A DNA stretch of 64,000 nt from the NCBI RefSeq assembly GCF_000964225.1, contig NZ_BAMZ01000008.1:1-64000 (forward strand). Reading direction: 5' to 3'. Each line of letters opens with the position of its first letter. The first letter of the stretch is position 1. The stretch is from Acetobacter syzygii (GTDB taxonomy: Bacteria; Pseudomonadota; Alphaproteobacteria; Acetobacterales; Acetobacteraceae). Made by a program: the position numbers and the translations under genes. A model generated the notes under the pieces. That model was not told where the DNA came from and did no database searches. It saw only the letters and a list, made by a program, of their open reading frames with translations. Shown here in pieces: positions 39,954 through 42,099 of the stretch.

Positions 39954-40487
39954 TCAGGCTGGTGATGGTCCTTTGCGGCGGAAGGCGTCAAGGCTCACAA
40001 CCTGGGAGGAGGAGTCGCCCTGTGCTTCCGTGTTGTCATCGGTCTCGGCCGATGTGGAGTCTGCCGGGACTTCCTCCGCGACTTCCCCCAGCTCAAAGTG
40101 CAGGTTGAAGTGGATGGAAGGGTCTGCAAACCCGGTAATGGCCCGAACGGGAATAACCAGTATGGACCCAACACCCCCAAAGGACAGACCAACGGACACA
40201 ACGCCCGCCTTGCGGTCCACGTTCAGGTCCCAGAACTGGTGTTGGAGCACAATGGTCATTTCGTGCGGGTACTGGGCACGGAGCCGGTCGGGAATTTGCA
40301 CCCCCGGCAGGTCCGTGCGGAAAGTCAGATAGAAATGGTGCTGGCCTGCAAGCCCTTCGCGGCTCACATGTTCGAGTGCTTTGAGCATGACGCCCTTGTA
40401 AGCCTCCTGTAGCCACTGGTCGTAGGGCAGCAGGCTGGTGGGGGAGAAGGCGTCATTTCCCGTGGTATTGTCGTGGTCATCAGCCAT
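39954..40487 (-). CDS. sspB: SspB-type ClpXP protease adaptor
   Basis: A 177-residue SspB-alpha family protein. The substrate-binding fold covers about residues 15-125 ([69 protein letters not shown]). An acidic linker follows, then a short C-terminal basic tail ([12 protein letters not shown]) resembling the XB motif that docks on ClpX. SspB delivers ssrA-tagged proteins to ClpXP. The tmRNA gene that encodes the tag lies directly upstream on the same strand. Confidence 0.93.
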
Positions 40488-40689
40488 GCTTGCTCTCCTT
40501 GCTTCAGCCGGTTTGGGTCGGGCTGGCTATTCTTATCACTCTAGCGTCAGCCATGCGCGAAAGGGTCGGCCAGTGCAAGCACCAAGGGCTGCCTGCGACC
40601 ATGTTCTGTCATACACGCGGGGCGTGCGCTCCAGCAAACATGGCCTCTGTGGGGCCTGAGTGGTGGCATCTATCCGGAGTGTGTGGGGA

Positions 40690-40987
40690 GTGTTTTCAAG
40701 TGGGGGGGCTTCTGTTGCCCGGTGCCCCCCCGAACCGCGCTTATTGCTTATGCAGCAACAGCGAGCACCTCAGTGTTATCATTGGCACTTGTAAATTTAG
40801 CCCGATAACGGTGGTACAATGCCGGGCAAAAAAGATGTCTTTACTGCGCGTGTCGAGCCTGTTTCGTCCCCATCGGTTCGGGTCTTGCGACCTGAATGTC
40901 TGGTGGAGACGCCGGGTACCGCCCCCGGGTCCACTACGCCTATGCCACATCCCGTTTATTGCCATAGCCGCAAGAAAACTTCCGGCA
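40690..40987 (-). ncRNA. ssrA: Two-piece tmRNA (permuted ssrA), alphaproteobacterial type
   Basis: Read on the minus strand. The acceptor piece comes first (about 40986-40901). It ends with a T-stem CCGGG, loop GGCGGTA, CCCGG, then CGTCTCC and ACCA, the layout of a tRNA 3' half. A 29-base intervening segment follows. The coding piece begins at 40871 with GGGGACG, which pairs with CGTCTCC to make the seven-base-pair acceptor stem (one G-U at position 3, as in E. coli tmRNA). A pseudoknot (GCCCG/CGGGC with TTGTA/TACAA) precedes the tag reading frame at 40786-40748. A GC-rich hairpin near 40706-40731 follows. The 3' end of the coding piece (about 40690-40705) is approximate. No protein gene fits this region. 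Confidence 0.93.
40748..40786 (-). other. tmRNA tag-peptide reading frame
   Basis: Codons GCC AAT GAT AAC ACT GAG GTG CTC GCT GTT GCT GCA TAA encode ANDNTEVLAVAA and stop. With the alanine carried by tmRNA the tag is AANDNTEVLAVAA. The AANDN start and AVAA end match alphaproteobacterial tags (Caulobacter AANDNFAEEFAVAA). Confidence 0.93.
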
Positions 40988-40992
40988 CCCCA

Positions 40993-41021
40993 AACATAGG
41001 GCTGTGGCTGGCGGATTGCAA
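40993..41021 (-). promoter_or_regulatory. Probable sigma-70 promoter of ssrA
   Basis: On the minus strand TTGCAA (41016-41021) and TATGTT (40993-40998) are separated by 17 bases, predicting transcription start near 40986-40988, just upstream of the acceptor piece. Good match to the housekeeping promoter pattern. Confidence 0.6.
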
Positions 41022-41181
41022 CAGTCTGCGCGACTTTCGCGGGTCTTGCGCACTAATTTGGGTATGATGAGGGGGGCGCATCTTTCCTGTTCAGGGCATT
41101 GCCTGCTACAACCCGCGGGCACAGGTGCCGCGGCTTCCGCCTGTGCTGTCTGTTTTTTCTAGCATGGTGGAGATCCTGCGC

Positions 41182-42099
41182 ATGTCACTGACCCAAGAGC
41201 AACGTGCCGAAATTGCGGCCCACGGGCAGGAAACATTCTCCACCCGCCGCCCCACAGTGCCCGCCCTTGAGGCCATTCTGTATGACCCGCAGGAAGTGCT
41301 GGACCACGGCTTTGTGCGTGTGATCGACTATATGGGCGACGATTCCGCCATTGTGCAGGCTGCGCGTGTGTCCTACGGGCGCGGAACGCGCAAGGTGTCG
41401 GAAGATGCGGGGTTGATCCGCTACCTGATGCGGCACCGCCATTCCTCCCCGTTTGAAATGTGCGAGATCAAATTCCACGTCAAACTGCCCATTTTTGTGG
41501 CGCGGCAGTGGATTCGCCACCGTATGGCAAGTGTGAACGAGTATTCCGCCCGCTATTCCATTCTGGATAGCGAGTTCTATCTGCCCGACCCCGCACACAT
41601 GGCGGCCCAGAGCGAGGTCAACCGTCAGGGGCGGGGCGATGTGCTGGCCCCGCAGGCCGCAGCGGAGGTGCTGGACATCCTGCGTGAGGATGCCGTGCGG
41701 ACCTACCGCGACTATGAGCGGATGCTGGATACGGAAAACGGTTACGGCCTTGCGCGCGAGCTTGGGCGCATTAACCTTACGCTCAATACCTACACGCAGT
41801 GGTACTGGAAGATAGACCTGCATAACCTCATGCACTTTCTGGCCCTGCGCATAGACCCCCACGCACAGTACGAAATCCGGGTGTATGCCGAGGCCATGCT
41901 GAAAATCCTGCACGCATGGCTGCCCATTACCGCCGCCGCGTTTGAGGAATACCGGCGCGGTGCGGTTACTTTTTCGGCCTCCATGCTGGCGGTTGTGCGC
42001 CGTATGCTGGCAGGCGAAGTGGTGGAACAGGCCAGTTCTGGTCTGAGCCGCCGTGAATGGGATGAAATGATGGCCACCCTTAAGCCTCCCGCAGGCTGA
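41182..42099 (+). CDS. thyX: Flavin-dependent thymidylate synthase
   Basis: A 305-residue ThyX that makes dTMP from dUMP using methylenetetrahydrofolate, NADPH and FAD. The ThyX signature RHR-x7-S is at [12 protein letters not shown], and a first RHRHSSPFE string precedes it. The C-terminal [15 protein letters not shown] region is typical. ATG 41182 is chosen (GGTGGAG upstream); frame 5' to it is not conserved-looking. Replaces the classical ThyA, which is not present in this window. Confidence 0.95.

Follow-up and report, generated by a model that had tools for sequence, protein, structure and literature searches.

Does the gap between sspB and thyX in the genome of Acetobacter syzygii encode anything, and if so, is it a protein or an RNA? 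The original prediction, made from the letters of a 64-kb stretch of this genome (hereafter the window), described the gap as 640 bp without a protein gene and placed a permuted tmRNA on its minus strand. Both of the flanking genes that it named were recovered with Pfam models.

39954 to 40487, minus strand: sspB, encoding the adaptor for ssrA-tagged proteins, directly downstream of the proposed RNA (PF04386, 142.3 bits)
41125 to 42099, plus strand: thyX, the divergent neighbor, with an unsettled start codon (PF02511, 193.3 bits)

If the thyX open reading frame is counted from its earliest GTG in frame, the gap to sspB is 637 nt. One could argue that it contains a small protein gene, since five mechanically called open reading frames of at least 60 codons (60 to 169 aa) overlap it, or that any RNA-like features are a chance structure. 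However, none of the five frames matched Pfam at an E value of 0.01, and the coding signal that had been named beforehand as evidence against an RNA gene was, as far as tested, negative. Given the evidence from RNA models and from relatives that is presented below, we consider a small protein or a chance structure to be hardly credible.

Our results instead identify the gap as the site of ssrA.

40699 to 41025, minus strand: ssrA locus, permuted tmRNA (full RF01849 match; ARAGORN call at 40657-40993)

Specifically, the alpha_tmRNA covariance model RF01849 aligned from position 1 to 355 of 355 with a score of 248.7 bits, far above its gathering score of 50, and with an E value of 1.5e-72 in a 2-kb search and 4.6e-71 across the whole window. 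The tmRNA_permuted model RF04321 was also covered in full at 40748-40963 with 148.9 bits, and these two were the only Rfam matches in the window to reach their gathering scores. In addition, the single gene that ARAGORN reported in the window was a permuted tmRNA (tmRNA*) at 40657-40993 on the minus strand with the tag ANDNTEVLAVAA. The RF01849 E value of 4.6e-71, together with a degenerate pattern for the tag and its stop that matched a single place in the window and none of 100 shuffled versions, excludes a chance origin. The proposed strand, gene form, and place were therefore borne out by the covariance-model search that had been suggested as a check. The span given at the time, 40690-40987, requires some revision: its 3′ end lies within 9 nt of the Rfam boundary, and its 5′ end falls 38 nt short. 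Likewise, the notion that this gene would be easy to miss did not hold up, as standard tools, namely, ARAGORN and two Rfam models, detect it immediately.

When read along the minus strand, the elements of the gene fall in the order that is expected of a permuted tmRNA.

40901 to 40993, minus strand: acceptor piece, the tRNA-like 3′ half, ending in ACCA (5′ end uncertain, taken from the ARAGORN start; CCA end read from the sequence)
40912 to 40928, minus strand: T-arm, CCGGG-GGCGGUA-CCCGG (structure line of the RF01849 alignment)
40905 to 40911, minus strand: 3′ strand of the acceptor stem, CGTCTCC, followed by ACCA at 40904-40901
40872 to 40900, minus strand: intervening segment of 29 nt containing GGTC-GCAA-GACC (read from the sequence; its removal is suggested by the gene form)
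40699 to 40871, minus strand: coding piece, the mRNA-like half, beginning with GGGGACG (3′ end uncertain)
40865 to 40871, minus strand: 5′ strand of the acceptor stem, GGGGACG, with 7 of 7 pairs to CGTCTCC, the third being G.U
40800 to 40824, minus strand: PK1, an H-type pseudoknot (alignment covariation)
40748 to 40786, minus strand: resume codon and tag frame ANDNTEVLAVAA with stop TAA (ARAGORN and pattern scan)
40702 to 40731, minus strand: 3′ hairpin of the coding piece, with 8 pairs and a 14-nt loop (read from the sequence, in the region aligned by RF01849)

The circular permutation is directly visible, with ACCA at 40904-40901 lying upstream of the GGGGACG that begins at 40871 and 29 nt between them. 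Furthermore, the acceptor stem carries a G3.U70 pair and a discriminator A. The T-arm, ACCA end, short intervening segment, pseudoknot, and tag frame that had been described are all present on this strand, as is the proposed pairing of GGGGACG with CGTCTCC. The Rfam and ARAGORN spans differ, and the mature RNA may have ends other than these.

PK1 was examined across relatives using the segments upstream of the tag from 190 ARAGORN calls, which were placed by means of the ARAGORN tag offset; in 187 of the 190 cases, translation from this offset gave the tag that ARAGORN had reported. After two empty segments (L159 and L261) were left out, 157 distinct rows were aligned. Of the 628 cells in stem 2, 624 were paired, and 23 two-sided changes were seen; the corresponding numbers for stem 1 were 599 of 624 cells and 11 changes. 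The stems were chosen after viewing covariation in this very alignment, and the counts tally sequences rather than independent events. When one side of a stem was slid by 1 to 3 columns as a control, 0.3 to 69.6% of cells were paired in stem 2 and 24.2 to 74.0% in stem 1. In A. syzygii, stem 1 joins 40824-40822 to 40811-40809, and its fourth pair (40821/40812) is a C-A mismatch, a state that is shared by 25 of 156 distinct rows. Stem 2 joins 40817, 40816, 40814, and 40813 to 40800, 40801, 40802, and 40803. Both crossing stems of PK1 hold, with support from covariation. Such compensatory changes across relatives speak, along with the RNA model E value, against a chance structure.

A tmRNA of this kind is nearly ubiquitous among relatives. 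RF01849 scored above its cutoff in all 49 genomes of the genus that were searched and in 144 of 150 genomes of the family (a set that includes the focal genome and two others of the genus), rising to 124 of 126 for genomes with completeness of 90% or more and contamination of 5% or less. The model had no match in the other 6 of the 150, with stated completeness of 73 to 96%. The genus set comprised 51 loci from 49 genomes, two of which had a second copy. The other 141 matches, all from outside the genus, were retrieved as well, and ARAGORN called 139 of these. Within the genus, the 7 acceptor pairs, the G.U third pair, and ACCA were found in 51 of 51 loci, with the stem GGGGACG/CGTCTCC in 49 and GGGGATG/CATCTCC in 2. 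A script with a relaxed pattern recovered the same features in 136 of 139 loci outside the genus. When the remaining three were inspected by eye, L178 proved to be regular and simply missed by the pattern, and L219 and L258 keep the stem. Stems outside the genus included GGGGGCG/CGCCTCC (90 of 139), GGGGACG/CGTCTCC (36), GGGAACG/CGTTTCC (2), and GGGGGTG/CACCTCC (2), such that pairs 4, 5, and 6 underwent two-sided changes across the family. As a separate matter, no CCA is encoded after the stem in L219 and L258, which come from one family genome each, and in L258 the intervening segment is long and, on visual inspection, seems repetitive.

An intact appearance might still be deceptive if the locus were a pseudogene or a remnant of a tmRNA, for example, one left behind by an integrated element. 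Integrating elements are said to use tmRNA genes and may leave fragments (PMC9004378, in its available portion), and two weak extra matches to RF01849, with 23.8 and 20.5 bits and thus below the cutoff, do occur elsewhere in the family. Yet the copy in A. syzygii covers the model from 1 to 355, all of its acceptor pairs and its tag frame are intact, and a tmRNA lies upstream of sspB in 49 of 49 genus genomes. It is also the one RF01849 match at an E value of 0.001 in its own genome, which is rated 100% complete; a second tmRNA sought there with the same model and threshold was not found. We therefore judge a pseudogene to be highly improbable. The locus is almost certainly ssrA in its circularly permuted alphaproteobacterial form and the only tmRNA detected in this genome.

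The gene is real, was correctly read, and is ordinary, as the circularly permuted form is normal for alphaproteobacteria; it belongs to a kind that is already known. A two-piece permuted tmRNA was reportedly shown to be functional in Caulobacter by Keiler et al. in 2000, as cited in PMC3985003 and PMC8119881. With the RF01849 family, the locus shares the order of acceptor before coding piece, the acceptor stem, the T-arm, PK1, the 3′ hairpin, and a tag that starts with ANDN and ends with AA, and it differs by ordinary sequence variation only, ANDNTEVLAVAA being one of several tags in the genus. The match to RF04321 likewise covers the whole model, but that model is restricted to the shared tRNA-like domain and its score falls below that of the alpha model. 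According to the accessible part of PMC11915505, RF04321 merges the alpha, beta, and cyanobacterial forms and on average scores lower than the alpha model.

It had also been suggested that the tag may be specific to this lineage. This idea fared less well. Across the 51 genus loci, ANDNTEVLAVAA was encoded by 22, ANDNSEVLAVAA by 24, ANDDSEVLAVAA by 2, and ANDNTKVLAVAA by 1, with the other two being second copies. ANDNTEVLAVAA is thus common among the genus loci rather than peculiar to this strain. Outside the genus, it was absent from the 139 ARAGORN calls but was present in one further locus that was read directly, from a genome of another genus. This locus, L177, has a full RF01849 match of 247.2 bits without an ARAGORN call, and its T-arm reads GGGGCAG, one G fewer than in relatives. 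A text search of the literature for ANDNTEVLAVAA and ANDNSEVLAVAA returned nothing within a scope that left most subscription journals and tag databases outside. Among the rarer variants, ANDDSEVLAVAA (L102 and L126, 2 of 51 genus loci) has a D in place of the otherwise constant fourth residue, N. Its carriers, G188 and G187, are the two smallest genomes of the genus search (1.7 and 1.5 Mb), and the same tag occurs in L075, from a goat abomasum metagenome-assembled genome (MAG).

The position of the gene next to sspB extends well beyond this strain. We compared neighborhoods by tblastn (E value of 1e-4) of the window's proteins against flanks of approximately 1500 bases, an approach by which distant or diverged copies are missed. 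On this basis, all 49 genus genomes have sspB downstream of the tmRNA and on its strand, as do 105 of 139 loci outside the genus. For outside loci with at least 1300 bases downstream, the count was 103 of 133. The other 30 of these 133 eligible loci had no sspB match, and so the neighborhood is common and not universal. A divergent thyX was found in 45 of 49 genus genomes and 119 of 139 outside loci. When named loci were instead fetched by SspB, 62 of 68 also had a tmRNA call. The tmRNA shared the strand of sspB in every case and was at most 700 bases upstream in 60 of the 62. Because a few of these named loci are from Hyphomicrobiales MAGs (L094, L097, and L099), the neighborhood reaches past the family. 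By the similarity of SspB, at 84 to 86%, the closest named genomes to that of the window are those of Acetobacter lambici, A. okinawensis, A. lovaniensis, and A. fabarum, which points to Acetobacter as the genus.

This arrangement raises the question of whether ssrA and sspB form one transcription unit in the Acetobacteraceae. If so, read-through from ssrA could couple the supply of the adaptor to tagging capacity. We regard this idea as rather doubtful, together with a related one, taken up below, on the tags of plasmid tmRNAs. A simple scan for a terminator-like site on the minus strand within 40450-41250 was negative, which is weak evidence for a joint transcript. As a point against the tmRNA gene itself, no sigma-70 consensus promoter was found in this region, which says little given that the scan recognizes one type of promoter only. 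Among the titles and the beginnings of abstracts that were listed, there was no report of the ssrA-sspB neighborhood; subscription journals fell mostly outside this search and the association may be published.

Two genomes of the genus possess a second full-length match to RF01849 (231.8 and 227.7 bits), with the tags ANDNKVALAAVA and ANDNRVALAAVA, and these are the only 2 of 190 ARAGORN tags that do not end in AA. Two giant plasmids with complete sequences also bear tmRNAs with these two tags: the 471,287-bp pAP22518-1 from A. pasteurianus, which is 99.4% identical to the first of the second-copy loci over 1001 bases, and the 526,169-bp pAC1084_1 from A. persici. Plasmids and drafts together thus provide four second, complete permuted tmRNAs.

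L143, 10001 to 10350, plus strand: second permuted tmRNA
L148, 10001 to 10413, minus strand: second permuted tmRNA
L264, 12302 to 12651, plus strand: second permuted tmRNA
L265, 11946 to 12359, plus strand: second permuted tmRNA

All four tags follow the pattern ANDN[K/R]VALAAVA, ending in AVA instead of AA. This ending is the basis for the related idea mentioned above, namely, that a plasmid tag could divert rescued proteins from their normal handling by ClpXP. SmpB was sought on pAP22518-1 and pAC1084_1 and found on neither. No listed feature covers the tmRNA in either plasmid record, where the gene table omits RNA genes. In the parts of the plasmids examined, there is a flagellar gene set at 50-100 kb of pAP22518-1 and chemotaxis genes at 380-430 kb of pAC1084_1. 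In a tree of the 51 genus loci and every third of the 139 others, the plasmid copies branched apart from the remaining genus loci, although support was modest (0.915 for the grouping with one other genome; 0.74 and 0.745 at the next two nodes). Plasmid tmRNA alleles have already been reported as a kind (PMC4131195, in the portion available). For Acetobacter or plasmid tmRNAs, no report appeared in the titles and abstract openings among the matches listed, with subscription journals mostly outside, and one may be published.

The chromosomal tmRNA itself matched 14 of 72,556 plasmid records, none over 80% of the query, and 1 of 50,697 phage records, where 51 bases matched in a jumbo phage of Sinorhizobium. 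A search of viral contigs for the plasmid tag with one exact pattern returned nothing. In the Sinorhizobium jumbo phage Phosso (469 kb), there is an alpha-type match to a permuted tmRNA with a long insert (L266:2435-3124, 108.0 bits), for which we obtained no ARAGORN call and saw no RNA feature in the record. Two-piece tmRNAs in phages are known, according to the accessible text of PMC9004378.

How might the gene function in A. syzygii? The genome encodes one SmpB (PF01668, 162.7 bits, in a 175-aa open frame) and has one match to the ClpX zinc finger (PF06689). By analogy with the family, the observed sequence elements and partner genes suggest that the RNA would be expressed, cut, and charged in this strain, leading to the tagging and decay of proteins. 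Transcription would yield a single precursor in which the acceptor half precedes the coding half, and tRNA-processing enzymes may then excise the 29-nt intervening segment. The permuted form of the gene thus predicts a mature RNA of two pieces, which would stay joined by base pairing that includes the 7-bp acceptor stem. G3.U70 is an identity element for alanine, and on account of this pair the RNA is probably charged with alanine. Together with SmpB, it would then enter stalled ribosomes and append ANDNTEVLAVAA to the broken protein, which SspB, encoded next door, and ClpX may pass to ClpP. Such a pathway has precedents. The permuted gene and its two-piece product are described in the available portions of PMC3985003 and PMC11915505, along with a precursor whose cleavage, probably by tRNA-processing enzymes, yields two pieces that pair. 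The same portions describe a tRNA-like part that bears alanine, a partnership with SmpB at stalled ribosomes, and a tag that leads to proteolysis. The SsrA/SspB/ClpXP system is described for Caulobacter in the accessible part of PMC8119881.

The locus confirms an annotation rather than revealing something. Its use is twofold. It marks a gene in a stretch that annotation of proteins alone leaves blank, and it predicts ANDNTEVLAVAA to be the tag that marks proteins for degradation in this bacterium. The conserved neighborhood of tmRNA and sspB, along with the second tmRNAs on plasmids, offers modest leads for the field of trans-translation that are more interesting than the locus itself.
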